Shown: positions 17,094-55,690 of the stretch, piece after piece
Layout of the letters: every line of letters starts with the position of its first letter
Numbering within the stretch: position 1 is the stretch's first letter
The notes under the pieces: model-generated
Told to the model about the DNA's origin: nothing
Databases searched by the model: none
What the model saw: the letters and a program-made list of their open reading frames with translations, nothing else
Source: Vitis vinifera
Taxonomy: Eukaryota; Streptophyta; Magnoliopsida; Vitales; Vitaceae
Length of the DNA: 64,000 bases
Reading direction: 5' to 3'
Assembly: GCF_030704535.1 (NCBI RefSeq)
Contig: NC_081819.1
Location: 21,672,001-21,736,000, forward strand
Position numbers and translations under genes: made by a program

Positions 17094-18024
17094 GGATTTT
17101 TTTTTTTTACAAGAGTACGACAATTTTAAAAAATAATTCATAAATTATCGTAGTAGGAAAAATAATTATAATTTTGTCGAGATAGGGAAGAGAGAATAAT
17201 TTAGAAGTGAAAAATCGACGATTTATGAACTTTTAAAAAAATTATAAAAAAATTGTTTTTTGAAGACACGATTTTTAAAATTTCATTTTTTATATGAGAA
17301 ATCGTCTTTTTAAAAGACAATTTTCATAAAAAATAAAATAAATTAAGAAGTGAGAAATCATCTCTTGAAGAGACGATTTCAAAAAAAAAAAAGTTGAGTG
17401 AAAAATCGTCTTTTAAAGAGATGATTTTCACAAATATATATATATATATATATATAAAATTCTTACTTTAAACAAAAAAACCAAGAAGGAAATCGTATTT
17501 CAAAAGAGACAATTTTCTACATCACAAAAGTGAGAAATTCTTACTTAAAATAAAATAATAATAAAAAAAAAGAAAAAAATCCAAGTGGGAAATCATCAAA
17601 TTATAAGTGAAAAATAATTCCTCACTTGGGTTTTATTTATTTATTTATTTTTATTTTTATTTTATTTTAAGTGAGAATTTCTCACTTTTGTAGTGTGGAA
17701 ATCGTTTCTTGAACTTGATTTTTTTTTTTTGTGAAAATCGTTTCTTCAAGAGATGATTTCTCATTTTTTAATTTTTGAAATAATCCTTTTAAGAACGATT
17801 TCTCATATAAGAAAAATGAAATTTTAGAAATCGTGTCTTGAAAATATGATTTTTTATAATTTTTTCAAAAGTTCATAAATCGTTTTTTAAAGATATGTTT
17901 TTTCATTTACAATTTCTTTTCTCTTTTTTATATGGATAAAACTAAAATATATTTGAAATTATTTTTCTTATTGCGATAATTTAAAAATTATTTTTTAAAA
18001 TTATTGTACTCTTATAAAAAATCC
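17094..18024. mobile_element. large foldback MITE, possibly Mutator-like
   Basis: A 931-bp element whose two halves are reverse complements. It begins GGATTTTTT..ACAAGAGTACGA and ends with the inverse (AGAGTAC..GGATTTTTT read on the minus strand). The interior is built of many short palindromes around GAAATCGTCT and AGACGATTTC. It has no coding capacity. I could not find a convincing target-site duplication, so the superfamily is a guess from the long terminal inverted repeats. A transcript would fold into a long double strand. Confidence 0.7.
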
Positions 18025-31054: not shown

Positions 31055-33665
31055 AGCTGGAGATGAATCGGGTTCGAATTCCAACGACTGACAAAATATA
31101 TATTTATATTGAAATCGACACGGAAAAGTCCTCTCCTGTGAGCGGCCTACCTTCCGTGTAAATGAACTTGTTATTCTTACAAATTTTAGCACGTGGCATC
31201 ATTTTATTGGTCCATCACTGGCAAAAATTTTTAATTTTTTTTATATAAATATGTAGTAAATCAAATATTAAGAGAATTTCTTTATCTTTATTTGTTCATT
31301 ATTTATTATATTACATTTTCTAATTAAATTTTCCATTTTTGGAAAGATGAGTTTACAAAAATGAAAAAAGTGAACACTAATTTGGTATTTTCAAAATTTT
31401 CTTTAATAAAATGATATATTTAATATTAGAATAATTTATTTAATTAATCACAAATATATTAGAGTTTGATCGTATGATTTAAAAATGGTTTTTTTTATTT
31501 ATTTTTAAAATTTTTAATGTTGTTTAGTCATCATTCTCTAAAAATAATTTTTAAAAGCAAAGTGAAATAGAAATAATTTTTTAAAAATAAGAATAAATTG
31601 TTTTCACCAATTCTTTAAAATAAAAGGAAAATATATACCTCTTTGATCATGACTTTTAAATCTTATTTTTGAAAAACTATTTTTAACTTAAAAAATAAAA
31701 AACAGTTACTAAAAACAAGTTTTCCAAGTCATCATTATTTTGAATTAACATGATATTGACTTTTTAGACTTGACCTATTCAAATTTAGTTAATATTAGGA
31801 TTATCAAAAGACAATGACCTAAAAACTTAATAAATAAAAGTGAAAGAACCCGAATTTAAAAATTAATTTCAAAAAATATTTTCTAAAAACTAATTATTTT
31901 TAATAAATTCTAGAATTGCCGTGACTTAGGGATTAAAAGAGATGTCAATAGCCCATGTAAGGGTTTTGACATTTAAATTACTACTTTGACAATTGAAATT
32001 AAAATTTTATTACCCAAGTTTAAATTTATTTCTAGAAATAAAATATTTTTATACAATTTTGTTTTTAAAAAATATAAATGCTTTATTTTCATGGTCAAAA
32101 CTGAAATCATTTTGGTTTTTATTATTACATAAATCCTAAGAATTGCCGGTCAATTCGGGAGTCAACAAAAGTCAATAGCCCATGTTAGGGTTTTGAAATA
32201 TAAACTGATACTTCGATTAAAAAAAATAAAAAAAAATCCTATATATATAGGATGAAAATAGAAAAATAAAGGAAAAAAAATATAAGGAAAGAAAAAGTGA
32301 AAAAATAAATTCAAAAGGAATTAATTATTTTTATAAAATACATAAAATTTTAATTATATTTATTTAATAGTAATGAAATTAAACAGAAACCATTTTTCTT
32401 ATTATTTTTTTAAATTAATTGATTAAAACAGATGGAAATAGCCAAAATTTGTAAAATTAATATCCCATATTTTTTAACTTATTTTTTTTTTATGTAAATA
32501 CCCTTTAATATTTAGATTATTTACATGTGTTTTAAAAGAAAAAATATATATATATATTTTTACAAGAAAAAAGAGAGGACAATTTTGTCCAAATGGGTCT
32601 TTTTTAAGGTGAAAACAATTGGAGGGTTAAGATTTCCAAACGAGGATGATTTCATTTCTTTTAATCAAATAACTTTTTTTGTTTTTTAGCACTTTCCGAG
32701 AACCAAACATGGCAATTACAAAAATCAAGCTAGACATTATTATTGGAACTTTGTTTCTAATGGGTTATGTGATCAAATTACATATGACGAAGTCAATAGT
32801 GAATAAATTATTAAATTTAAATATGATATTCACCATGGCCAAATGCATACTACCATAAGAAAGCATAAAGAAAGAAACAAACTTTTGGATTCTAATTAGA
32901 CCAATTTGAATGATAGCCTAAGCCTACCTTTGTATGCGATAAAAAGCCACCATGTTTGGTAACCATGAATTGAAAATTTTGGATTTGAGTCGTGTTGACC
33001 TAAAAGGCAAGAATATTAAATTTACAATTTAGCTTGAAAATTATTAAATAATATTTGATTCAAAGAAATAGAATTGGAAGTCACCAACCCACCATATTGG
33101 ATTTTTAATTTTATTTATTATTTTAGAAAATAAATAGTATGAAAATGTTTTTCACCTGCATAAACAAAGTTGTAGATGGATAAAGTCTAGGCCAAATTTC
33201 TTTCTCCTTCTTAAAAATTTGAATAAGAAATAACTATATCAAATTATTTTAATAAAAATATTTCTTATTTTATAAAGGATCAATATAATATAAAGGAAAA
33301 GTTAAAGTTACTTTATACGAATCATATTTTATTTATCATTTAGGTAAGACGTAATTTCATATTTAAATCTATTTGGATTGGAAAGTTACAAATTCTTTTG
33401 TAAGTTCAATAAAAAGTTTTTATACTTGTTTTGTTAATTTTGTTTGAATAGCTTATAATTTTAAAAGAAAACTTAGCATGAAAGTTATGAAGATGTTACT
33501 TTTTGTTGAAAGTTCTTATTGACTTGTGTAAGAAGTTACTTGTAACTTTTTGTTGAAAGTTATTTTTTTAATATTAATACTTTTAATTGAAGTACATAAT
33601 AAAAAGTTATTCCAGACAAGGAAAGAAAGTAGAAGGAAAAAAAGGGAAAAAAAAATAGTTTTAGG

Positions 33666-34241: not shown

Positions 34242-35589
34242 ATCATTTATAAATGTACGAGTTTAACACTAATTTTAATTATACTTAATCTTTTTCCATA
34301 TTTTTCATAATATAATCCAACATAGAAAATCATCTTTCTAAATAATTTTTTTTCCTTTTTTCGATAATTTCAGATAACCAAACTTAACCAAAAAGTTGGA
34401 ACCTTCTATAACTATAGAAAAACCATTTAGGAGTTCATTGTCAATGATTTAACCAGTTGGTGACTTGCTTTAAAGAAGAGTGCCAAATCAATGTGGGATT
34501 TCTTTCTTCTTGGTCAAGTTCCATATCTCTTTGATTGTTTACTTTAGATATGATTTTTGACTTTAAGTGAGCTAGTAATCAATGGCACCATGCCCCATTA
34601 CAAAATGGAAAAGAGGGTAGCGTTATAATTCCAAATTTCCCTACACATTGATGATGCTCAATTTGATTAATTTGCAAGTGAGGAACCATCAAGAAAGGAT
34701 AGAAATTGATGTGAATTGTAAGCTTCCTCAACATGGCCCTATTCATTCTTCATGCTTTCACTTTATAATCCTGCACTCATCATCAAAGTTTAGATTCACA
34801 TACAACAACAATGCATACATTTGACGAGAGTGAAATATAAATTCAATTAATATTTATGTTTATATTATAATAAAGAATTAAGAAAAAAGTTTAAGTTCCA
34901 TTTGGTTACTATTTTCGAAAATAATTTTAGAGAACGGTTTTTGAAAATTGTTCTCTAATGTTTTGTAAAACAAAAGTTTGTTTTAAAACATAAAATATTT
35001 TTAACCTATTTTTAATGTTTTTAAAATAATTTTTATTTCTAATGTTTTGTTTCTTAATCATTCTACATGTTTATATAGTTATTTTTTAAAATAATTATTA
35101 TAAAACAAGTAAAAATAATAGAAAAAAATCAAAATATGTTATCTGAAAACATCTTGTTTTCTATTCTTAAGAATAAAAAATAGTTTTTAATTGCCAAACA
35201 TGTTTTCTTGGGTTTTTATTTTGGAGAATAACAATCTTTTCTAAAAAATAATTGTCAAACAAACTTTTAAATAATAATAATCTTTTTTAATAATATATTA
35301 ATGATCTATCATCACATTCTCTCTAAAAAAAGACTATTAGAATAAAATTATAAACTATTTATAAATAAAATATGTTTAATTATTAATTTATAGTGATATA
35401 ATCACTAACAAAAAATCCCTTACTTTTATTTATTTATAAATAATTACTTTTTTAACGACAAACATTTGCAATGGATTAAATCCATTCAAACAACACTCTT
35501 TTGCGATCGAAATTCATTATTATAATAGTTGCCAGAGTGTTATAACTTCTTGCATGTGCTTGTTGATTGTTTGGTGAGAATATTAAAAG

Positions 35590-35860: not shown

Positions 35861-36429
35861 TTTTTAATAGATTTATAATATTGCTATCCTTATTCAATCA
35901 ATGGTAGCTCAACTAATTGATGAACAACTAATTAGACATTGGAATTTTTTATTAATTGTTTATTAAAAATATATATGTGATAAAAATAATCATTATCTTA
36001 ATCATTTATTTAAAAAAAATAAAACATTGCCATTGATTGTTATTTTCAAAAACAATTTTTTTTTCTTAAAAATATAAAATATGATATCTCCTAGAACATA
36101 TTTTGTTGTTTTTATAAAAGTCGTTTAAAATAATTATATAAATATGGAAATGATTGAAAATAAAGTATCATATATGAAAGTTATTTTTAAATACAAAAAA
36201 AGTAAAAACATTTTTCGTCCTAAATTAGATTTTTGTTATGTTAAATATTATAAAATAGTTTTCAAAAAAACATTTTAAAAATTATTTTTAAAAACACTTC
36301 CCGAATAGAACTAAGGTTAATAGAATTGAAAAAAGTAATATTGTGATTGTTAAAATTGATGTAGCAAAAAAATATTTGTTGTTATGAATTCTTCAATTAA
36401 TAATGTTCATTTGCATGCCTATTAAAAGC

Positions 36430-37790: not shown

Positions 37791-38321
37791 AGTTGACCTT
37801 GTAGTGACAGGCAATAATGGGTGAGATGATATCTTTTTATCATTTTTCCTTCTTATTAATCTATAAGTTATGTTTTACATAACTGATTGAAGACACTTCA
37901 TTTAGATCTCACTATTGATTTAGTTTAAGAAAAATATTGTTACAAGCATTAAACCCTATTGATGTATATTCCACTTAAGGCTTCATTGCGAAGAAATGTG
38001 ATAAAACCCATAATTTATTTTAATTATGAACAAAAAATAGAATTTTGTTAGTGATCGTTATATTAATTAATTATCGTTATTATTGTCATATAAACCGCTA
38101 CATTAGTTGTTATAATATCGTTATAATGATAAAAGACACCATAATAATGTCATGAATTTATGTATTGTTATGTAATAGTCACTAATAATATAAAAATATT
38201 TTTAATTATTGTTTTAAGGATATTACAATTGTCATTAACGAAAACAATAAATTTGATTGTATTTACCAGATAATTAATATCAAAAATTAAAAATAAAATA
38301 AAATAAAATAGATGAGGTAGA

Positions 38322-38507
38322 AGGGTCATCAGAGCTCCCTTCAAACCAAATTACAAGTCAAGAAGGAAACCTCATCTCCCCATTCATGCAAACCCTTAAA
38401 GGGGACATTGGATATATTAATCTGTACACTACAAAGGTATCCATGAACCAGCAGATGTAACACCTTCTACTCTTTTGAATTTGGAATGAGGGCAGCTTGT
38501 TCAACCC
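38322..38507 (-). ncRNA. MIR159-like precursor A
   Basis: A hairpin of about 186 nt on the minus strand. The 3' arm (38350-38330) reads as a 21-nt miR159-like RNA with the family core GAAGGGAGCTCT. It differs from canonical miR159 at position 6 (A to U) and position 21 (A to G). The 5' arm (about 38500-38480) gives a passenger AGCTGCCCTCATTCCAAA that pairs with it over most of its length. A second paired block nearer the loop (CATCT..TTCATG..ACC on both arms) is the conserved upper duplex typical of miR159/319 precursors. A TATA box lies 94 bp upstream. Targets would be GAMYB-type genes if the position-6 change is tolerated, which is inference. Confidence 0.8.
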
Positions 38508-38600
38508 CCACTAAACCTCACAAACTATGGAGCTATGAGCTTATGGAGAGATCTTGCTGCACTCCTGGAGATATACGAAGAAGGATAGGTACACTTGGGT

Positions 38601-38607
38601 TTATATA
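38601..38607 (-). promoter_or_regulatory. TATA box of MIR unit A
   Basis: CTATATAAACCC on the minus strand, 94 bp before the hairpin base. Transcription would start near 38572, about 65 bases before the hairpin. Confidence 0.6.
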
Positions 38608-39941
38608 GAGATAGGTGAGGATGGTAATTAATACAGACCATTAATGAGGTAATCCATGAAAATCTGAGGGTGATATTTTGGGAGAGCATAGAGAAGAGAG
38701 AGGTAAATGTATGAAATCTATAAAGGTTGGTGTAATAATCACAAAGCGATAGTGGTGGGATATCATCCCTTTTCTTTTCCTTTTCTTGCAAGAAATGTCA
38801 AAAATTCAATAATATATATATTAATAAATTTAAGGAAAACCATGTGCAATGGTCAGATATGCTGTGGTTTATTTGGGGTTGGGAAATTTTGAAACTCATG
38901 GAGCTTAATTTTTTAATATTTGTTTTTCCTTTTTCAATAATTTTATATAATATATATACACACATATGCGGGAGAAAAGACATGACAAAACTCAAAAGTT
39001 ATTTTAATTATATATAAAACAAGAAAATAGAACTTTATAAGTAATCATTAATAATTATTATTATCGTCTTATAATATCGTTATAAGGATAAGAAATACCG
39101 TAATAATGTCATGACGTACTATTATGTATCGTTATCGAACGATCGTTGATATTGTTCTAATATATTTTATTCTTTTAACGGTATTACAACGGTCATTAAC
39201 TAAAACAATAAATTGGCCATATAGAGATGATATTTTTTAAGATTCATTTAATATATTATAATTTTAAAAGTCAACAATGGGATTTGTTCTAATAAAATTA
39301 ACTATAATTATAAGTTAATTATATATATATTGAAGAAAAAAAATATTTGTTCACAAAACCAAACTTTTTCTACTGATATAAAAATTATATCCTTGTCCAA
39401 AAGACTCTTTATCCTTTTGGTTTTCACATATTTTTTTCATTCTAATTAATATCTTCTTCCCATCAAAGAAGATAAAAAGAGTTGAATAGATGGTTATCTT
39501 CTCCTCTAATATATACCCACAATATAGGGAAAAAACCATTAGTGGAAAGTTATTAAAATTTAAATTCTTTGATTATGGACCACACTTACATAGACATACC
39601 GATACGAAGTATATATAATCATTCACAATGTCATTTCACATCTTTAGAACACTCAATGTGCATTTAATTTTCTCATTGTGATACAACATTTACTTTTGCT
39701 TTCAACCTATGTGATCTTCTTCTTCCTTCTTTAAAAGTAGGCTAGCTGTTGAGTTTCTTCCTCCCTCCATTTGTTAAAACATGCTTCCTTCCTTTTGTAC
39801 TCTTAATCTTGCACCCATCTTCAAAATTCACTGTTTCATAACAAAAAACATCAAAACCAGCTATGAAAAATGTAATTAATTTCTAGAGGCATTAATGAAG
39901 TAATTAATATAAAAAATAATTAAAAAAAAAAAGAGGATCAG

Positions 39942-40128
39942 AAGGGCTATCAGAGCACCCTTCAAACCAAATTACAAGTGAAGAAGGCAACCTCATCTCC
40001 CCATTCATGCAAACCCTTAAAGTTGACATTAGATATATTAATATGTACACTACAAAGGTATCCATGAACCAGCAGATGTAACACCCTCTACTCTTTTGAA
40101 TTTGGAATGAAGGCAGCTCGTTCAATCC
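39942..40128 (-). ncRNA. MIR159-like precursor B
   Basis: Same layout as A, nearly identical along the whole hairpin. The mature-strand position (39971-39951) carries the A-type position-6 change plus one more at position 15 (A to U, so the core reads GAAGGGTGCTCT). In the fold this turns a paired base into a mismatch next to an existing one, so processing or target recognition may be altered. The upper duplex and the TATA box at 94 bp are intact. Confidence 0.72.
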
Positions 40129-40221
40129 CCCATAAACCTCACAAACTATGGAGCCATCAGCTTATGGAGAGATCTTGCTGCACTCTTGGTGATATGTGAA
40201 GAAGACTAGCTAAACTAGGGT

Positions 40222-40228
40222 TTATATA
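40222..40228 (-). promoter_or_regulatory. TATA box of MIR unit B
   Basis: CTATATAAACCC on the minus strand at the same 94-bp distance from the hairpin base as in unit A. Confidence 0.6.
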
Positions 40229-41179
40229 GAGATAGGTGAGAATGGTGATTAACACAGGCCATTAATGAGGTAATCGAAAAAAATCTGGGGGTGATATTTT
40301 GAGAGAGCATGGAGAAGAGAGAAGTCAATTTATGAATCTATAAAGGTTTATGTATTAATAACAAAGCAACAATGGTGGGATATCATACCTTCTCTTTTCC
40401 TTTTCTTGCAAGAACAATCCAAAATTCAATGAAATATATATTTATTTATTTTTATGCATTTAGGGAAACCATGTGCTATTACAATGGTTAAATTTGTTGG
40501 CTTGCTTAGGGCTAGGAACTTTTGAAACTCATGGAGTTTGATTTTTTTAATATTTGTATTTTCAATAGTTTTTAACAAAAAATAGTTTCAATTTTTTTTT
40601 GTTAATTTACTTAACTAGGGTTTCTATTATAGATTAAAGACAATTTATTTGGTTACATTTTATTATACACAAGGAATATTAATTGTTATTAGATTAACTA
40701 AATGACATTGACAATTTATTTTTTCTCTTATTAATTTATTCTAAAAATTTTGAATTATACAATTAATTAGGAGTGTTTAGTGATGCATGCCAAATCTAAA
40801 CATGCAAATCTTGTGGGACATAATTGCACTTATTTATATGAAAGAAATTATCTGGATTTTGCACATCCGAGCCATCAATCAGTTACGTGCTAATAAAAAA
40901 AACATGTACTTGAGGTTTTTTTATGCCTCAATCCAAGATTCCTATCCTTTTGTTTTAATATTGAAAATATTTAAAAAAAATAGTTATTTCCCGAGATACT
41001 TTTTGATAAATGAAATATATGTGTATGCATATGTATTATTAAAATTCGAATATTTTGACATTGATGGTAAATCTTCTTTGACATTAATGATTTAAACTAC
41101 CAATTGGTATTTTATTACTTATCAAAAAAAAAATGATGCAAAACACCAAAAAATATACAAATACAAATTCATGGAGATA

Positions 41180-41275
41180 AAGGGAAAGAGGAAGAAGGCT
41201 TTTACAGCACCTTTTAGACCAAATAGGGAATGAAGGAGGCAGATAGTTTTGCCTCCAAGATCATGTTACTTTTAA
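41180..41275 (-). pseudogene. decayed MIR159-type unit between B and C
   Basis: CAGCACCTTTTAGACCAAAT stands where B has CAGAGCACCCTTCAAACCAAAT. It is followed by GAATGAAGGAGGCAGA and GCCTCCAAGATCATG, matching GTGAAGAAGGCAACC and the CATTCATG block. The opposite arm and promoter are absent. Confidence 0.5.
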
Positions 41276-43170
41276 AATATGCATTAAACCCTCTTAGTGT
41301 TATGGTTTTTAATTCTTTAATGGTTATTTATATATAGTTTTATTGAGCCTTTGTTTAAAAGCGTGTGATAAAAATCAAAAGTTATTTTAATTATTCGACA
41401 AAAAGTAAAATTTTGTTAATAACCTTTATTTTAATTGTCATTATTGTCATCATATGAACCGTTATACTAACTGTCATAATATCGTTATAAGGATAGAAGA
41501 TACCATAATAACGTCAAGACTATTTATCGTTATAGAACCGCCATTATTGTTACTTTATTCTTTTAGCCGTATACAACTGTCACAACTAAAACAATAAATT
41601 GGTAGTATAAAAATGATATTTTGTAGTATTAATTCAATGTATCATAATTTTAAAAGTCAACAATATGACAAATTATAATAAAACTAACTACAAGTTAATT
41701 AGAGGGTTTATCTTTTTCATATATATTGAAGAAAGAAATATTAGTTCACAATTTTGATGGACAAATCAAACTTTTCTACTAATATAAAAATTAGGGTTTC
41801 AATAAACTATCAAAGACAAATTATGTAATCATATTGAATTAATTTCATAAAAAAAAATTGTTGTCAATATTTGTTTTCTTAAATTCCAAATCAATAAAAT
41901 AGAGGGATCGTCAATTTATTTTCAAACTTATAATGGATAATCATAAAATTAAAAATAATTTCTTATTTTAAAATAATACTACTCCCATCAATGGAAAAGT
42001 TGAACCTTGATGAAGCTAGACTAGTTGTAGCTATTTCAATTAAAAAAAAACTTTTTATTTCAATTAGACTTTTCCATTGAGGAGGAAATTAGGGCTCCAA
42101 CAATTGATTGCTTTAAATTGATGTGAAAAAAAAAATATTGTTTTGAATAATCTAATTAATGGTGTCCTATTGTAAGAATTTCAAAAACATCATTTTTTGT
42201 TTTCCTTTTTCATTTTCTAGGAGATAACAATTGATCAATGATTTCATTCATCCTTATCCAAAAAGCCATGATCGTTATTTTTTCTTACTTTGCAGCTCTT
42301 TTATTTAAGGTTTTATATTTTCTTTTTTTTTTTCTTTTTGTGGTTTCTTTATGTTATATTTTAGCTTTCTCCACTTAGTAAAGTGATATTTTCTTTGCAT
42401 TAGTTATAGTGTTAGTAGTTTTTCATAAACACAAATGTATAAAACCAAAACCTTGGATCATACCTTCCATCATAGCAATTAGATTCAATGAAAACCTTTG
42501 ATAGAAAATAACCCACAAAATGCAATTTATATTATCTAGGACAATTTTTACTAGTCCATTCAAAATCTAATATTCGTGTTGAAATGGATAAAGCTAAAGA
42601 CTCTCTTATAAACTAGAGACCCTTTATCATTTTTAAGTTTTTTTGTATCATTTTTCACCCTAATATCTTCTTCCCATCAAAGAAGATAAAGAGAGTTCGA
42701 TGAATGGTTATCTTCTCCTCCGGCATGTCCCCTCCAATATCAAGGAAAATAATTGTTAGTGAGAAGTTATTAAAATTTAAATTCTTTGATAATGGGCAAC
42801 ACAAACAGACACATGCGTAACATGTAACAAATAATCATTCACAATGTCATTTCATATCTTTGGATCACTCGATTTACATTTATTTTCTCAATTTGATACA
42901 ACAATTAGTACTTTTGCTTTCAACTTATATTATTTTCTTCTTCCTTCTTCAAAAGTAGGCTGCTAAGTTTCATCATTTCTTCCTCCCTATCCTCTATTTG
43001 TTAAAACGAATTGCGGTCCTCCTTCAATTCTTCTATCCCAATGGCAAACCCATCTTCAAAATTCACTACTTCATAACAAAAAAACATCAATGTCAGCTCA
43101 GAAAAATATAATTAATTTCTAGAGGCATTAATAAGGTAGTTAATATATATAAAAAAAATGAGAATGAGAA

Positions 43171-43357
43171 GGGCTATCAGAGCTCCCTTCAAACCAAATT
43201 ATAAGTGAAGAAGGCAACCTCATCTCCCCATTCATGCAAACCCTTAAAGTGGACATTAGATATATTAATCTGTACACTACAAAGGTATCCATGAACCAGC
43301 AGATGTAACACCTTCTACTCTTTTGATTTTGGGATGAAGGCAGCTTGTTCAATCCCC
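43171..43357 (-). ncRNA. MIR159-like precursor C
   Basis: A hairpin almost identical to A and B. The mature-strand arm (43198-43178) is the same 21-mer as in A. The passenger arm (about 43347-43327) has drifted slightly (GGGATGAAGG against GGAATGAGGG on the plus strand) but still pairs. The upper duplex is conserved. The TATA box is 92 bp upstream. Confidence 0.8.
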
Positions 43358-43448
43358 CATAAACCTCACAAACTATAGAGCCATCAACTTATGGAGAGAT
43401 CTTGCTGCACTGTTGGTAATATGTGAAGAAGGCTAGGCAAACTAGGGT

Positions 43449-43455
43449 TTATATA
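43449..43455 (-). promoter_or_regulatory. TATA box of MIR unit C
   Basis: CTATATAAACCC on the minus strand, 92 bp from the hairpin base. Confidence 0.6.
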
Positions 43456-43809
43456 GAGATAAGAAAGAATGGTAATTAATATAGGCCATTAATGAGGTAA
43501 TCAAAGAAAATCTGGGGGTGATATTTTCAGCAGAGAATGGAGAAGAGGGAGGCAAATATATGAAATCCATAAAGGTTGGTGTAATAATCACAAAGGGACA
43601 GTGGTGGGACATCATCCCTTTTCTTTTCCTTTTCTTACAAGAACAATTCAAAATTCAATGAAATATATATATATTTTTTTATGCATTTATGGAAAACTGT
43701 GTGCTAATACAGTGGTCAGATATGCTGGTTTGTTTGGGGCTAGAAACTTTTGAAACTCATGGAGCTTGATTTTTCAATTTTTTATTTTCTTTTTCAATAG
43801 TTTTCATAG

Positions 43810-44600
43810 GCTATTGAGTATCAAATTATTCATCATTATCTTTAGCTTGTGATGGATAACATTTCCTAGTTGTGCATGACACAAATTTGTAGTCTCGCTT
43901 TTCAACATCTTATCTATATATGATGACTTTGCTAACATCGATCATGTAGATAGATACCAACATTTTTCCTATACCTAGAATATACTTTGACATCTTCTAG
44001 TCCAAATGAGGCATAATTGCATGAGACTATTAGTTATGACTTACGATACAAACGATAATTTTTTTTTTAATTTCTAGAATATGGAAAACATTTTGGAACT
44101 CTATTTTATGAGGACCAAGGCAAGAAATAATCATTGTCTTGACTTAGAGTCGTTAATGATCACCATTATTTGATTCCCTTCATAGTTTGATACGTTAAAT
44201 TATTTTTCTTTATCATTTGTCATATGATTAGAAAAATCGAAATTAATTACCCAATCATCATCGATGTAGTTGATGGCTTCAATTATGGATATTGCTGTAA
44301 ATCAAGCTCTACTAAAATCTTTCTTATAATTGTATTCTATAGCTATGAGCATCCTTTTTGAGTTAGCTCTTACATTGACTTGATATGTTCATTATCTTTG
44401 ACATTTTCTTGGTGACTAGTAGATGTCACCAAGTTTTCTTCCTCTTTGACCAAGAAGTATTCCCATAATATACAACTCCTGTTAAAGTTGACTATTACAA
44501 GTTTTTTCCTTGTTACCTCCTTAGCTTAGCATGTTTTTCATCCTTTGCTACACTCGGAACATTTCAAAAGGCACATCAAAGATCACTTTTTTATTTTATT
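43810..44600 (-). mobile_element. fossil Copia (Ty1) LTR retrotransposon fragment
   Basis: On the minus strand the middle of this stretch resembles the Copia segment from late gag to the pre-integrase region (the LGHV..HKLK-like signature). No LTRs are seen at its ends. It is heavily broken, with many breaks, and clearly old. It lies between MIR unit C and the AT microsatellite. Confidence 0.55.
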
Positions 44601-44892
44601 TTATTTTTCATTAATTAAGCAATTGCAAATATCTAAGGAGATTTAAAAAAAAAAAGAAGAGATCTCTTTTCTTTCTTCTTTTCATTTTTTTTGAAAGAAT
44701 AATCCAAAATCAAATTAAATGCATATTTTTTAAACTTATCAAATAAATACATCCCTTCTATCACAGGGTTTGAATATGTTGGTTTGTGTAGGGTTGGGGA
44801 TTCCTTGTAACCTTGAACTTAATTTTATATTTTTTTTCTTTATCAATATTTTAACAAATTAAATTTGTAAAATTTTAGAAATGTCTCTCTCT

Positions 44893-44895
<3 letters not shown>

Positions 44896-44939
<44 letters not shown>

Positions 44940-44950
44940 TAGATAGATGT
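44896..44950. repeat. (AT)n microsatellite with (GATA)n end
   Basis: A long pure AT run followed by a few ATAG units. A smaller AT run lies at about 49726-49751. Confidence 0.85.
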
Positions 44951-44999
44951 ATTTGGACTTATCGAAAAACAAGTTAAATTAATTAAGGTTATGTTTGGC

Positions 45000-46040
45000 T
45001 TTTGAAAGGTCAAGTAAAAAAAATATAAAAGAAAATAAAATAAATTAAAATTATTTATAAACTTATATATTTTCAATTATTTAATCTTCATATCAAATAA
45101 TTAAAATAAGTGAAATAAGTTAGAAGTAGTACACATGAATAATTTGATTTTAAGTCATATTGTTTTATTTTTCATAACATTTTCATTGGTTGAATATGAT
45201 GGATTATAATTTCGTAGGATTATTGCAATATTTTAGTATTCAAAAGTAGAAAATATAATTTGTTATTGATAAAATTAACTACAAGTATCAATTAATTAAT
45301 TAGGTCACTGTTTTAGGATTTATGTGAAATAATAATTGTTAGAGCATTTTAATTACTTGGTGCATGTATATTGAAGATCATGAATTTATGATAAAAACAT
45401 TTACATTTATGCCAAGAAAATGAACTATACAAAATTTAAACCTTATCATTTTAATTAATTTAGATGAATTACAATCTTGGGTCCCTGGTGTATACAGTCC
45501 ACAGACCTTACAATAAAAGGCTAGAATTTTTTCTCCTCTGCGCGCAGCATCATCAGGACTGTGTACTGCAACGCCCTTGTGCATGGCCTAGTCTCTGTTT
45601 GGCTGGCTAGAAAACCACATCGACCTAGAAAAAGGCAGGAAAGGAAAATGACCATTATGTAAGGAGAAAAATAATTTGGCGAAAAATCATAAATGATAAT
45701 AATATTTTCTTTGATTGAAAATGGTAATTGTGGCCTGTAGTGCTTTATCTACCATGACTCAAACTGTAGTTGCGTGGCCTGCACTACTTTATCTAATCAA
45801 ACCCATTATTCTTCATCCTCACAATATTTCTTTGTTTCGGTTTTGATCATCTTATTTAAAAACTAATTGATATTAATCAGTGCAGAAAGCTAAATCTTTT
45901 TCCGGACACTACAACATTACATGAACATGTTTCTAGAGACCATATTATTAGGATAAGCAACATTATTATCATCCAAACACCCATCCAACCATGTTCAAAT
46001 CATTGAAGGAAACTAACAAAAAAAAAAAAAATCAAGAACA
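45000..46040. other. spacer between MIR units C and D, part of the D/E duplication
   Basis: About 45400-45480 matches 48280-48350 (both contain ACTATACAAAAT..CAT..TCAGATGA-like words), so the duplication that made D and E includes their downstream flank. A GC-richer patch near 45480-45600 has an imperfect inverted repeat (GTATACAGTCC / GGACTGTGTAC). No gene seen. Confidence 0.45.
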
Positions 46041-46045
46041 TTAGA

Positions 46046-46238
46046 AGGGTTATGAGAGCTCCCTTCACTCCAAGGCCAGAAAGATCAAGGCAACCACTTC
46101 TCCGAGGTCATGCACACCCATAGTTTGCACACAACATTGCTATATATATTGTGCAGCCATAGGTACTCATGAACCAGCAGCTGTGGATACCATCATCTCC
46201 TTTCAGAACTGGAGCGTAAAGGAGCTCCCATAAACCCC
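46046..46238 (-). ncRNA. MIR159: MIR159 precursor D, mature strand equal to vvi-miR159a/b
   Basis: A hairpin of about 193 nt. The mature arm (46074-46054) has the core GGAGTGAAGGGAGCTCTC and agrees at all 21 positions with grapevine miR159a/b as I remember it. The passenger arm (about 46230-46210, GAGCTCCTTTACGCTCCAG) pairs along its whole length. The loop-proximal duplex (CCAC..CT.C..TCATG..ACC.AT.G on both arms) is well kept. A TATA box lies 85 bp upstream. Expected role: control of GAMYB-type MYB mRNAs, as for the miR159 family. Whether this locus is miRBase a or b cannot be told from sequence. Confidence 0.93.
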
Positions 46239-46322
46239 CCCAAAACCTTAAAAAGGATCAAATGTGTGGTGGAAAAGATGAAGCCAAGAGAGATGGTAGT
46301 GAATCAAGGTGAAGAGGGGTCC

Positions 46323-46329
46323 TTTTATA
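46323..46329 (-). promoter_or_regulatory. TATA box of MIR unit D
   Basis: CCTTATAAAAGG on the minus strand, 85 bp from the hairpin base. Confidence 0.6.
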
Positions 46330-46339
46330 AGGTTAGACA

Positions 46340-48740
46340 TGGTTGGTTTGGAAGACCTTTTGTATTATTTCAAAATCCGGGTGGGATTTTCTTGCTTCAT
46401 TTTGAAGATATGTTGCATCTTTTCTAGAGGCTTTGCATTTATGGAGGATTTGCTTCTGGCTAAATATGGCTAATTACAAGTAGACAAAGTGATTACGCAT
46501 TTCTTAGAAGATGACTCTTGAATGGAAAACCCTTTTGGATTCTGCCTTGGATTGAGGATTTGTACATCATGTGCTTTGTTTGGAAAGGTAGACTTGCAAT
46601 ATTAATTGCTCCTACTTGGGTGTTCTTCCAAAGAAAAGTTGAAAGAAAATGAAAATAAATAAATAAATTTAAGCTAAATAAAATATTTCTCATGAGCTTT
46701 TTAAAGTGGGTAATTTGAAAATATATAAAATTTTAATTAATTTTCATTAAATATTTAACATTTCTTCATGTTTTTAATTGCACATTAGTTAAAGAAGATT
46801 TTAGATTTTTTTTCTTAATTAAATACTTGTCTTGATTCAAATAAAAGTTAGAGTATATATATGTCGTGAAAATCTAAGTCTAAAATATAAATTTCAACTG
46901 TCAATGACTATTACCTTAATTATTATACTTAATCATTTTATTATTTGTTATAATAAAATACATGATATGTTGATTGGATTGGCTAGTTTCCAAAACTTGA
47001 ATGCTAACCCAAGCCATTAAAGTTTTGGGTTGATCAAAGGTTTTCCACACCAAGAGAATAATGCAAAGATCCAACACGTCATGAGTGATTTGCATCCCAT
47101 CTTACAGAGTTTAGTTATACATTTGCTTGAAAAAACTCTACGACAATCTCATGATCCTTTGCGATATGTGGGCGACAATCTCATGAAAAAAAATGTTGTT
47201 ATAGTTTAATATGAGTTGCATTTTATAAGTCTATCAAATATTTTTGAAAAAAGGGTTCGTAAATTGTTTTGCTTTCCACCTCAAACCGCACATTGGAGAC
47301 AATATCTTTCTTCCTAGATTTTCATTTTTTGTTTTGACTTCATTTAGTTTTATTCTCTCGTTCCCTTTCTCTAAAATGGCTGTTTCTAGGTAGTTGTGTA
47401 TCTACCAATGAAGAAAAACAATTTCATTGTTGTGATGCTTTGATTCTTAAATTTTGTGGTGTGGGTGGTGAAATGCGCTTGTAGGAATTTTTTTTTCTTT
47501 GGGGTTGGGTTGGTGTCTTCAATTTGGTTTTTATGAGACACATTTTCATTTGTTTTCTTTCTGTTTTTACTTATATTATACTCTTTTATTTTCCATGGGT
47601 GGGTAGAGAGTATTGATATCTCTTAGATATCCTCAACCAGTAAAAAAATTATCTCTTGAAATCATTATGGAAATGCCATTGTTTTTATTTTAGCTATTTT
47701 CTAACCTCAAATAAAACCCTAGTTTTTAAGTGTTCTTGTAAGAAAAACACAGTAGGTGTATGTTTCTTCTTATGTATTTTCCAAATTTCAAAAGCATGTT
47801 GCTAAAAACAAGCATGTCAAGTGACTATTTGATTGAGTTTTCATTTTTCATGATTTTTCTTTCACAAATCTTGATGATTTTTTTTTTTTGTTCCCAAAAA
47901 TTTGAAGGAAAAATGTAAAGAAAAGAAAATAGAGAGAAAAAAATTAAAGAAAAAAAAATTAAAGTTAATAATTTTAAAATATATAAACTTCTATTTAATT
48001 TTTATTATATTTAATTTTCTTTTATATTTTTGTGGTGAAATTAAATATAAGAAAACCATTTTTTTAATTATTTTATTTTATTTTCTTTGTGTTTTCAGAT
48101 AACCAAACATACCTTTGTTTCCATAAATTAAATATCTTGAGTAAGATTCTCTCCAAGGTGAATTTGAAGTTAATTGCCATGCCAATATCAATTTTTAGAG
48201 TATTTCAAGTACTCATTGCATAGAGCATGAACCCATGATAAAATAAATAAATAAATAAAAAGACTTTTTATTTATATTTTTTCCAAAGAAAATGTACTAT
48301 ACAAAATGTAGTCTTCCTCATTCTCATCAATTCAGATGAGATTAGAGTCTTAGTTTTATGATCTTCAATCATGCAGCTCCTCTAAGGCATCATCCCCATG
48401 TTGCATACCCCATCAACCTTGCAAAAAGAGCACAAAGGGACATGATCATATAATAAGACCAAATGAATTTGGATATCAATTAATCATAAATCATAATACC
48501 ATATTCCTTTTCAAAGTTCTGAAATAATTCACAAAATGCCTTCTTTTCAATGAAAATCTTTCTTTTAAGAAACAATTCTACGATAATTTGTTATTGGGTT
48601 TGGGTCATCTCATCTAAAAAATAAATTGGTGTTTAGTTTACAAAAGCGGCATTGTTGCCATTCCAACACTCATCTTAACATATTCGAATTATTATTATTT
48701 TTATTTAAAAGGAAAAAAATAAAATATAAAAAAGCAAAAA
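46340..48740. other. spacer between MIR units D and E
   Basis: 46340-46500 is the upstream region of D, repeated at about 49040-49210 upstream of E (GGTTAGACATGGT, GGAAGACCTTTTGTATT, ATTTATGGAGGATTTG). The rest is AT-rich. 47820-48115 looks like a degenerate MITE ending ATAACCAAACATACC. No gene seen. Confidence 0.5.
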
Positions 48741-48749
48741 GATTAGATC

Positions 48750-48930
48750 GGTTATGAGAGCTCCCTTCACTCCAAGGCCAGAAAAGATAAAAGCAAACAC
48801 TTCTCCAAGTTCATGCAAACCCATAGTTTGTATACAAAATTTCAGTATAGAGAATGCAGCCATAGGTTTTCATGAACCAGCAGTAGTATCTCCTTTCAGT
48901 TCTGGAGTGTAAAGAAGCTCCCACAAGCCC
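48750..48930 (-). ncRNA. MIR159: MIR159 precursor E, mature strand equal to vvi-miR159a/b
   Basis: A close duplicate of D. The mature arm (48776-48756) is the same 21-mer as in D. The passenger arm is GAGCTTCTTTACACTCCAG and the upper duplex is conserved (TTCTCC..TTCATG against its partner). Upstream sequence is shared with D for over 150 bp, but the TATA position reads CCTATAGAGG, about 100 bp from the hairpin base, a weaker box. D and E may therefore differ in expression. Confidence 0.9.
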
Positions 48931-50159
48931 CTCAAAAACCCTATTTAGGAAAATGATATCTGCAATGTGACCAAAAAGATAAATTTTTGTGGAGAAATGG
49001 CTGTGATAACAAAATGATCAAGAGGTGTTCCTCTATAGGGTTAGACATGGTGGATATGGAAGACCTTTTGTATTGTTAATCTGGGTCAGATTTTCTTGCT
49101 TCATATTGAGGATATGTTGCATCTTTTTCTAGAGACTTTGCATTTATGGAGGATTTGGTTATAGCTAAAAATGGCTAAGCACAAGTGGGCAAAAAGGCTA
49201 ACACATCTTTCTAGATCATGGCCTCTTGAATGGAAAATCCTTTCGGATTCTGACTTGATTTGAATAGAGATTTGTATATGTGATTACATGGAAATCTGAC
49301 TGGGAGGCTTTCAAAAAGTACATTTCTTCACATTTTTCTTCTCAAAAAAAAAATAAAAATTGAAAGTTGAATTTGTCTTAGATATTGTTGATTTTAGATA
49401 TTAAAATATATATTGTGTTGTATTCATCTTCTTCTCTTGTAATATAAAATATATTAAAGTGCGTTTAACAATGATTTTAGAAAATATTTTGAAAGATAAA
49501 TTTTTTAAGTATTAAGAAATATTAGAAACGTGTAGGAAATTGATTTTCCAATTGAGATTAATGTAAAAATATAAATTAAGAAAATTAAAAATAATAACAT
49601 AATACAATTATAATGGGTTATTCAAAATGTATAAATCAAGTAGCTGAAGATTCTATGAATTTTCCATAAATTTGGATGTTGTACATAATACCAACTTGTG
49701 CTAATATTGATAACCTATAATTTTCCATATATATATATATATATATATATACTCATTCACTGTTTGAGTGGTGCAAGCCTTCAAAATCTCTACAAATGAT
49801 TCGTCAATGGCTATCCTTTTCTGGTTTCTGGATTCACCGTAAAAGTAACCTGCATGAGCCATTTATACACACAAATAAAAATAATAATAATAACAATAAT
49901 AATAATAATAAAAACCCTTCTATTCTATCATTTGATTTTAGAAGGAAAATCCAAATACCAATACACTAAAAACTTAGAATACATATTGAGTGTGAAGAAT
50001 AGACACAAAGAGAAAGACGAAAGATATGAACATGAATGTTATTTCTTTCAATAAACGTATAGAAAAAATTTACTTTCTTTTTTTGAAGAAAAAAACCCAT
50101 AGTTCATAAAATAAAAATCAAGAAATGAATCAAAACATTTTCTGAAGGATGTTAGAAGT

Positions 50160-50350
50160 AAGAACCATAGAGCTCCCTTCACTCCAATACCAGAAAGATC
50201 AAAGTACCCTCATCTCCCAAGTCATGCTCACCCATAGCTTGCTCTCACCATATGCTAGAACTTGAGCATCCATGGGCATTCATGAACTGGCAGCTGTGGC
50301 ATACCCTCATCTCCTTCTAGCTAGGAGCAAAGAGAGCTCCATTGAACCCC
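50160..50350 (-). ncRNA. MIR159: MIR159 precursor F, variant mature strand
   Basis: A hairpin of about 190 nt. The mature arm (50188-50168) has the D/E-type position-7 G, but position 1 is A and position 21 is A. The passenger arm (about 50342-50322) reads GAGCTCTCTTTGCTCCTAG on the minus strand and pairs well. The upper block keeps TCATG and CCCAT. A TATA box lies 94 bp upstream. The flanks differ from D and E, so it split off earlier. Confidence 0.85.
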
Positions 50351-50443
50351 ACCAAAACCCTAGGGAGAAACTATAACATAGATTATATACTCAAGAAGAG
50401 TAGCTCAAATGGTTGTGAGCAAAGATGAAGGCGAATGGGTCCT

Positions 50444-50450
50444 TTATATA
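50444..50450 (-). promoter_or_regulatory. TATA box of MIR unit F
   Basis: GCCTATATAAAGG on the minus strand, 94 bp from the hairpin base, the same distance as in units A and B. Confidence 0.6.
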
Positions 50451-50759
50451 GGCCTAGAGATTCCATATGCACCATTGGATTTGAAAATACTTCCTATTGG
50501 GAGCATCTCATAATGGGATTTTTTTATTTTTTTTTATTTTTGCCAAAAACCGAAGAAAATTAAAGATTGAAATATTGGATAGAGATTATAGTGCTTATGA
50601 GCATCTTTGCTTTACATTTAGGGATTATTGGTTGAAGCATATAATAATTTTTTGTAACCATATATGTATAGCCAAAGTGGGTATATGTGAATATTTTTTA
50701 CACTATGAATATAGAGTTTGTGGGTCCATTTCATGATTCCATTTGGTGGCCTTGACCAA

Positions 50760-53651: not shown

Positions 53652-54099
53652 AGTTGGATGTTGTAAGATGCACTTACAAACATGTCAAAACATGATTAGC
53701 TCAAATTTAGACGAGATTAAGCTTACGTGTAAAAAGCATTTTCAAAAATAGTTTTTAAAAATTATTTGATGATGTTTTGTAGAATACAAGTCAGTTTTGG
53801 AAACCTAAAATATTCTTAACATGTTTTTTATATTTTTAAATATGTTTTAGAAATAACTTTTATATGTAATATTTTATTTTTAATCGTTTTTCATATTTAT
53901 ATAATTATTTTTTTTTAATACAACACTTAGAAAATAGGTGAAAATAACAAAAAACAACTAAAAAAATATTTTTTGAAAATACCATTTTTAAAAAAAAATA
54001 ATTTTGTGGTTTCTAATTGTTAAATATGTTTTTCCTTTTGTTTTGTTCTAGAAAATAAATAAAAAACCATTTAAAAAACAGTTGCTAAATGTAAACCTA

Positions 54100-55690
54100 A
54101 GAGTTGGTTTGAGATAGTTTCCTATTTTTAGCTTAAGTTAGAATATGAGACCAAAGCTAAAGTCATAATTTTTAAGATATAATATTAGGATGTAAAAGTT
54201 TTATCAAATAAGAAAGAACTTTTTGTATAAGTTAAAATAAATTTCTATAATTAATATTAAGGCTATTTTTTAAGTTATAAGCTTTTTGAACAAAATTATT
54301 CAAACAAATATGAAAAATTTTATTGAATTTAAGAAATAACTTTCACTTCTAGAAGTTAATCAGAGGGCTAAAATAATACTTTTAATATTCTCTTTTTCAC
54401 AGAGATGACATGAGTTGGGCCGAATCATCACATCTCACCATCATGTTAGGCTTTCAATATGACCACATGAATTATATGGAAAGGCCCAATGTCCAAACAA
54501 AATGGAGGCCCAATTTTAAGCCAATTTAAAGTTATACCATCAAATCCTTTGAGCTTAGTCATTGAGAGAAAAATAAAGGGCTATGTGATTAAAAGGGGTG
54601 AAATCATCCCCATTTTGTTGATCTAATTCTTCTTTTTTTTTCTTTAACCCTAAAAAATATTCATTTTGGATAAAAATGTCATCTTTTTCTTTTTCTTGTA
54701 AAAATAATATTTTCTTTTAAAACGCACGTATAAATAATCAATATATTGAAGGACATTTATATATATATACTTTTTTAGACAAAAAAAAAAGGGAAATATT
54801 ATATTTACAAATACGAGATGTTTTCATCCCTTTTAATCTATTATTTCAAAAATAAAAACCCTGGTCCAAATGCCTAATAAGTCAAAATAATAATAATAAT
54901 AAATAAATAAATAAATAAATAAATAAAAGACAGAATAAAAAGTTGATTTTGGCATCAACAAAGTAAATTCAGTATCACGTTTGTGTTGTTTTCCACTCTC
55001 ATGTCAGTCACAAGTTGGCCATCTCACCTAAAGGGTCATTATATGGTGGCCAAAAAAGTAGCTTTTCCAAACCATATGGGAAAATGATTGCCAATTAAAA
55101 AAATGGTCTTACCTAAAAAATCGTCTCATTTACTTATTCCTTCACCTACTCCCCTTTTATTTGTGATAAAATCCCATTTACTTTCACCTATATTTCTTTA
55201 TATTTTCCCTTTTTAACCTTGAAAAAAAGTTAATTCACGATAAAACTATCTATCAATATGTCCAACTCATATCAAATTTAACTTGAGATAGAGACCATAC
55301 CAACTCAATTCCCATGATTCTCTTGAATTATTAAACAAAATAATTATTTTAAAATCCATGTCATATAAATCATATTATAAAAGTGATCAATTCTATCATA
55401 ATTTAAAAAAAAAATGTTAAAATTTATTCCTTATATTTTAAATAAAATTATATATATATATATTTTTTAAATTTCAAGTTTTCAATCCTAAGGAGGGAAT
55501 GTTAATCCAATTGAACTTCATCTATACCAATCAAAACTTAGGCTTAGAAGTGGGATCCACCCACATTGCAATCCTACTTTATTCCATGGTTTGAATTTAG
55601 CTATACACATCAATTCAAAGTTTGATTGGCACTATACCTCTTCGATACCTCAACATTTTCCCACTTAAAGTAATTGGTGTTTAGTTAGAA
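54100..55690. other. AT-rich intergenic spacer
   Basis: No gene seen. It includes the AAAT microsatellite and degenerate AT-rich MITE-like sequence. Confidence 0.55.
54897..54929. repeat. (AAAT)n microsatellite
   Basis: About seven clean AAAT units following a short AAT run. Confidence 0.85.

Follow-up and report, generated by a model that had tools for sequence, protein, structure and literature searches.

Six tandem MIR159 genes in Vitis vinifera and a predicted split of targets at positions 6 and 7 of the mature microRNA

A 64,000-nucleotide stretch of the Vitis vinifera genome (contig NC_081819.1, C15:21672001-21736000; hereafter the window, in which position 1 is its first letter) carries six MIR159 genes, here lettered A to F, which form a genuine and well-formed tandem array on the minus strand. 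The best explanation as a whole is probably that these are separate tandem genes which have split into two groups of target specialists at positions 6-7 of the mature microRNA (miRNA). These positions read UU in A-C, AG in D-F and AU in miR159c, the canonical grapevine member. By predicted pairing, D, E and F would repress two R2R3 GAMYB genes, while A, B and C would repress a GAMYB-like MYB gene on contig 19 together with two genes of NOZZLE-like type. Tandem clustering of MIR159 genes is already known; what appears to be new is that the halves of the array differ at positions 6-7 and fit different predicted targets. Neither this split nor the promoters described below had been seen in the initial annotation, which a model made from the letters of the window alone.

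The MIR159 array

The Rfam model RF00638 (MIR159; gathering score 74 bits) gave exactly six matches above its gathering score in the whole window, all full length (1-196) and on the minus strand, with scores of 99.7-119.3 bits and E values of 1.6e-20 to 1.5e-25. RNAfold energies were -70.0 to -95.4 kcal/mol (z of -4.2 to -7.9), and every hairpin's energy was below the lowest of its own 100 dinucleotide shuffles. The Rfam scores and shuffle-tested folds rule out chance hairpins. The hairpins occupy 38318-38510 (A; 99.7 bits, minimum free energy -70.0 kcal/mol, z -4.2), 39939-40131 (B; 106.1 bits, z -6.3), 43166-43358 (C; 110.6 bits, z -6.3), 46042-46239 (D; 119.3 bits, z -7.4), 48744-48932 (E; 106.3 bits, z -7.9) and 50156-50351 (F; 118.2 bits, z -6.7), with a start-to-start spacing of 1.4-3.2 kb. 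Folds and alignment show the architecture of the family, i.e. a long stem with the miRNA at the base of the 3' arm and, at a distance of 21 nt, a further, loop-proximal duplex. Hairpin E is asymmetric relative to D, about 10 nt being gone from its 5' arm between the passenger strand (miR*) and the loop-proximal duplex. A permissive Rfam scan of 31000-56000, down to E=1, yielded no seventh MIR159 copy; beyond the array itself it listed six mirror images on the plus strand, which stayed below the cut-off, and five matches of low complexity. The initial annotation had proposed six foldable minus-strand hairpins of the miR159 family at these places, each with the second duplex typical of the family, and on all of these points the results agree with it.

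Mature strands and subfamily

Direct scanning located a 21-mer on the minus strand at each of the six positions given by the initial annotation. The predicted mature miRNAs of A (38330-38350) and C (43178-43198) are both TTTGGTTTGAAGGGAGCTCTG and that of B (39951-39971) is the U15 variant TTTGGTTTGAAGGGTGCTCTG; D (46054-46074) and E (48756-48776) are identical at CTTGGAGTGAAGGGAGCTCTC, and F (50168-50188) is predicted to yield ATTGGAGTGAAGGGAGCTCTA. A core of GAAGGGAGCUC is exact in five of six members, B having a single change of A15 to U. The strand of D and E equals vvi-miR159a as reported from grape (PMC3145640), as had been stated in the earlier reading, and A, B, C and F are variants of it, as also stated there. 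In the open-licence literature, the exact A/C string was found in a single paper, on wheat, and the exact B and F strings had no match.

What sets miR159 apart from miR319 is a mature strand with no C at position 7 and an end other than CUCCC. All six array matures end in CUCUA, CUCUC or CUCUG and group with miR159; these 3' ends rule out a miR319 identity of the array, and four of the five family loci outside it carry TTGGACTGAAGGGAGCTCCC instead. Plant miRNA criteria (Meyers/Axtell) call for a duplex with few mismatches and small bulges. The initial annotation described a pairing passenger arm for every member. D-F clearly fit the criteria, only 1-3 of 21 miRNA bases being unpaired (RNAfold); A-C are borderline, with 6 of 21 unpaired (overhang included), which had not been foreseen. 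The energy of the miRNA/miR* duplex is -19.0 to -22.6 kcal/mol in A-C and -27.4 to -29.7 kcal/mol in D-F, while that of the loop-proximal duplex is -21.3 kcal/mol in A-C and -14.1 to -18.4 kcal/mol in D-F.

Genome-wide searches covered 495.6 Mb in 21 contigs. RF00638 gave 22 matches, corresponding to at least 11 loci seen from both strands; the array thus holds six of the 11 detected MIR159/319 loci and six of the seven detected miR159-type loci, the totals being lower bounds. Reading of the matures at the five other loci revealed four of miR319 type and one, C17:3048158, with a canonical miR159 mature, which is taken as miR159c. The loop-proximal 5p arm of this C17 hairpin equals grape read 17_2431 on chr17 (PMC7278995). 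At two miR319-type loci, C2:676368-676551 and C6:9150550-9150744, the opposite strand passed the MIR159 cut-off as well, at 87.7 and 100.2 bits, and antisense hairpins are possible there. No plant-like locus was found among viral contigs (0 hits).

Predicted targets

Sites were scored with an in-house script, in which a mismatch costs 1 and a G:U pair 0.5, both doubled in positions 2-13. A genome search with the A/C complement (within three mismatches) yielded 28 places, compared to 4 for the reversed pattern. Four of the 28 were MIR loci, and of the other 24, five were read (all four with two mismatches and one of the 20 with three). Two of these sites, C10:7199198 and C19:1855531, lie in genes with a PQRGLGVA-LEKI-type motif, which score 20.4 and 25.8 bits, respectively, with the Pfam NOZZLE model (cut-off 21.3). 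The sole place passing that model genome-wide was a different gene, C19:4176627, and the two candidates are therefore named NOZZLE-like rather than NOZZLE orthologues. Penalties at C10:7199198 were 0.5 for B, 1.5 for A/C, 3 for miR159c, 6 for F and 7 for both D/E and miR319; at C19:1855531 they were 1.5 for A/C and for B, 3 for miR159c, 6 for F, and again 7 for D/E and miR319. The site is identical at 20 of 21 positions between the two genes, and in an alignment of 1.3 kb of each, windows with at least 19/21 identity fall only on the miRNA site, which points to constraint on the RNA. A third site, C19:6701520, lies in a GAMYB-like R2R3 MYB gene (Pfam MYB domains), with penalties of 2.0 for A/C, 3 for B, 4 for miR159c, 5 for F and 6 for both D/E and miR319. 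The notion that A-C target MYB genes only was rejected, as the two CAAACCAAA sites on C10 and C19, expected in MYB101-type genes, are in the NOZZLE-like genes.

Tomato SGN-U567133, reportedly described in 2010 by Buxdorf as a NOZZLE-like, non-MYB target of miR159, is of the kind predicted here for A-C. The tomato miRNA is said to be canonical miR159, whereas here a separate U6 U7 group is predicted to do the targeting. In the portions of text available, miR159 occurs together with 'NOZZLE-like' in PMC6724108, and together with both SGN-U567133 and 'NOZZLE-like' in PMC10625627 and PMC13162426.

For the GAMYB side, the query was a site known from lily (PMC8495421) and not the complement of D-F; it gave 77 places versus 6 for the reversed control. 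Among the 77, 10 loci were read in context and six were scored, so that the GAMYB genes named here come from a sample and not from an exhaustive search of the genome. Two sites, C13:19808621 and C6:18038977, fall in genes with R2R3 MYB domains (Pfam), whose C-termini we take to be of GAMYB type. Penalties were lowest for F at both (0.5 on C13, 2.5 on C6), followed by D/E (2.5 and 4.5), miR319 (3 and 5), miR159c (3.5 and 5.5), A/C (6 and 8) and B (7 and 9). Within two mismatches, the F complement was found outside MIR loci at the two GAMYBs, at a broken GAMYB copy on C10 and at C8:13167954.

When all 16 base combinations at positions 6-7 were compared, AG was the best for both GAMYB sites and UU the best for both NOZZLE-like sites. 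Against either kind of site, GAMYB or NOZZLE-like, the canonical AU of miR159c leaves a single mismatch at these positions.

Several further places resembled miR159 sites. The broken GAMYB copy (C10:18847098) keeps its miR159 site (F penalty 1.5); around the site, stops interrupt each of the three forward frames. A near-perfect miR159c site at C11:6527412 (penalty 0.5) lies outside any reading frame of at least 50 aa; an untranslated region, a short exon and a target mimic are candidates. On C3, seven near-miR159 sites occur within 33 kb (884801-917148); the three that were read lie in similar short frames with the site on an encoded KHPSFQ motif, and the one frame given to Pfam matched the auxin-responsive SAUR family. 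This SAUR cluster was discarded as a target class, the best penalty being 4.5-5.0 in the two sites scored, and the encoded motif may explain the likeness.

Promoters and transcription units

A TATA box on the minus strand precedes the hairpin by 91-100 nt in five of the six array genes. The sequence CTATATAAA lies 98 nt upstream in A (38600-38608), B (40221-40229) and C (43448-43456) and 100 nt upstream in F (50443-50451), while D has the TATA-like TTATAAAAG 91 nt upstream (46322-46330). In E the corresponding position (49030-49038) is degenerate, with CTATAGAGG in place of D's TTATAAAAG. Across the 64-kb window CTATATAAA occurs five times, always on the minus strand, and four of these copies are the ones just described for A, B, C and F. 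Neither TATA[AT]A[AT][AG] nor CTATATAA was found in about 240 nt upstream of any of the five non-array family loci.

Because five of the six genes have their own TATA box at a near-fixed distance, the array looks like six genes with transcription of their own and not like a polycistron; the promoter of E looks damaged, and its degenerate TATA box makes weak transcription of this gene probable. That one polycistronic precursor spans the array is very improbable. Six hairpins on one strand within 12 kb would suit such a precursor, and compact MIR clusters can be polycistronic (PMC2773440), but the individual TATA boxes argue for separate units, and the spacing is unlike that of the maize clusters of 142 nt and 198 nt that were confirmed as polycistronic in the same paper.

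Duplication blocks and sequence constraint

Self-BLAST of the window (self-hits longer than 60 nt) resolved three homology blocks, A-B-C, D-E and F. A is 84-86% identical to B and C over about 660 nt, the unit around A (38271-38944) being homologous to 39901-40561 and 43149-43804, and B is 83% identical to C over 1.2 kb (39402-40572 against 42617-43804; 1207 nt). D and E are 76% identical over an alignment of 587 nt (46006-46567 against 48709-49279), and F is alike only in the hairpin, where its identity to D is 79% over 200 nt. A further repeated element adjoins each of A, B and C (37997-38253, 38983-39387 and 41364-41793), and the repeat unit is therefore this element plus the MIR gene, arranged head-to-tail. 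In a tree, A, B and C grouped together with 92/100 support, with no resolved branching order among D, E and F. Together with the share of family loci in the array, this homology upholds the local, same-strand family growth proposed by the initial annotation. The internal gradient of divergence that it also described was not seen; the sequences should read as blocks that differ in age. A dated duplication history was dropped, as the distances were rough and the rates assumed.

Mature strands vary less than the DNA around them. D and E show 0/21 differences in the mature and 76/285 in upstream DNA. Among the gap-free 193-nt hairpins of A-B-C, which have 18 variable columns, these number 1/21 in the mature, 4/21 in the miR* and 0/42 in the loop-proximal duplex, compared to 22/120 in the 120 nt upstream. 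Covariation across seven hairpins was not informative (two-sided change in 9/49 pairs; covariation term +0.47).

The contrast in A-B-C between the loop-proximal duplex and the miR* is significant (Fisher p 0.010), and raises the reading that the main product of A-C is a loop-proximal small RNA rather than the one at the miR159 position. The 5' arm of this duplex lies at 38436-38456 on the minus strand in A and has the same sequence in A, B and C. The duplex is about as stable as the miRNA duplex in A-C and weaker than it in D-F, and a second phased duplex has been reported from grape MIR159c (PMC4434875), whose loop-proximal 5p has been sequenced (PMC7278995). However, a search with the complement of this small RNA gave no match outside the array at two mismatches or fewer, and of nine places within three (control 0), four are in the array. 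Loop-to-base processing, which is established for the miR159 family, may hold the upper stem. With no good targets genome-wide, a loop-proximal RNA was set aside as the main output of A-C and is considered very improbable.

The principal competitor to target specialisation is a redundant expansion, in which all six genes would serve the dosage of miR159 against GAMYB, A-C would be drifting or dying, and their fit to NOZZLE-like sites would be coincidental. It draws on the larger mismatch of A-C to both GAMYB sites (penalty 6-9), on their weaker duplexes and variable miR*, on real decay in E (TATA box and arm deletion) and on vvi-miR159c being the abundant member in grape (PMC4434875). It does not sit well with A-C having an intact TATA box at the same place, with the near-invariant mature and loop-proximal duplex beside variable DNA just upstream, or with UU being the best of 16 for both NOZZLE-like sites, where conservation between the two genes peaks. 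A redundant expansion is accordingly regarded as rather unlikely, though well ahead of the loop-proximal and polycistronic readings.

Probable target specialisation

MIR159 genes are transcribed by RNA polymerase II and their hairpins cut by DCL1, with the miRNA loaded into AGO1. Under the preferred reading of two groups of specialists, the array would have grown by repeated duplication of a unit carrying hairpin and core promoter, and each gene would give a polymerase II transcript from which DCL1 cuts a 21-nt 3'-arm miRNA for AGO1. D, E and F (A6 G7) would then act on the GAMYBs of C13 and C6, while A, B and C (U6 U7) would act on the two NOZZLE-like genes and the contig 19 MYB gene and would largely have lost those two GAMYBs as targets. 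More tentatively, with chances put a little short of even, the array may have resolved a target conflict of single-copy canonical miR159c (A6 U7), A-C having come to match the NOZZLE-like genes by UU and D-F the GAMYBs by AG, and the U15 of B further matching one NOZZLE-like gene.

Several results weigh against specialisation. On the GAMYB side, the D/E penalty of 4.5 on C6 is a poor score, and the F-complement search gave 22 places versus 15 for the reversed control, so that matches with three mismatches are mostly noise. Furthermore, both GAMYBs pair slightly better with miR319 than with miR159c, and miR159c is therefore not the only other regulator to consider. For A-C, UU was only the second best of 16 at the C19:6701520 MYB site, the C10:7199198 gene falls just under the Pfam NOZZLE cut-off, and C18:24592431 (A/C penalty 2, two mismatches) has no recognisable gene around its site. 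The NOZZLE-like sites were found via the A/C complement, so the fit of A-C is partly by selection; support outside that selection comes from the conservation of the site between the two genes and from the earlier reports of NOZZLE-like targets. In A-B-C, the difference in variability between mature and miR* was not significant (Fisher p 0.34), and the weaker miRNA/miR* duplexes together with the variable miR* columns could mean decay.

Genomic surroundings

The surroundings of the array are AT-rich. The window has 127 open reading frames of at least 70 aa, of which 36 were given to Pfam (10, plus the 26 between 36602 and 56025); none of those 26 had a match. On one side the array is flanked by a BTB/BACK gene at about 26.4-27.8 kb (Pfam), and on the other by a 555-codon open frame at 56.4-58.0 kb without a Pfam match. 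Self-BLAST also revealed repeats resembling miniature inverted-repeat transposable elements, i.e. an inverted repeat at 17103-17392 / 17719-18021 (about 300 nt, 74% alike) and three pairs that are 68-70% alike (32407-32684 / 54569-54852, 36127-36290 / 53730-53911 and 34894-35188 / 36048-36312), two of which have their arms on opposite sides of the array. At 44881-44960, Rfam gave five matches below threshold to mir-297, mir-1277 and mir-3688 of animals, which were taken as low-complexity noise; those to mir-297 and mir-1277 fall on both strands.

Relation to known MIR159 clusters

The initial annotation held that MIR159 genes usually occur singly, which is contradicted by a six-gene cluster of MIR159 paralogues on maize chromosome 8 (miR159a/b/h/i/j/k; PMC2773440) and by tandem and head-to-head MIR159 loci in soybean (PMC3481472). 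The maize cluster resembles the grapevine array in gathering six members of the MIR159 family into a single local cluster. It differs in being from a monocot and in being reported as expanded relative to sorghum, and the portions of PMC2773440 available report no target split; nor is it listed with the compact clusters, those less than 2 kb apart, in Table 2 of that paper, as far as the table is available. Soybean likewise has local MIR159 duplication in a eudicot, but with head-to-head copies, whereas all six genes here face one way. The wording 'tandem miR159' is also found in a maize endosperm study (PMC4584948), and the AUUGGAGUGAAGGGAGCUC mature type in soybean, cassava and peony papers, from the text available of each.

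The U6 U7 of A-C is shared with conifer miR159, UUUGGUUUGAAGGGAGCUCUA, in which only base 21 differs from A/C, and in pine a MYB101 homologue is predicted as a target of miR159 isoforms (PMC6683148, PMC12027079). The available portions of these two papers describe no array, and orthology to A-C is not implied. Within grapevine, vvi-MIR159a, b and c have been reported (PMC3145640, PMC4434875), D and E carrying the vvi-miR159a mature. No published description of the six-gene array was found in the open-licence literature, and a grape MIR159 cluster is not named in the portions available of PMC2831844, PMC3118147 and PMC3446319.

If true, the proposed split would mean that tandem microRNA genes divide their labour through two seed positions. 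One 12-kb stretch holds two blocks of the same family whose alternative bases at positions 6-7 fit two predicted target classes, with the single-copy member in between. This raises the question of whether duplicated microRNAs divide their targets or merely add dose. GAMYB has been linked to the seedless fruit that gibberellin induces in grape (PMC12058866, PMC8480016), and knowing which copies hit GAMYB would therefore have practical use.

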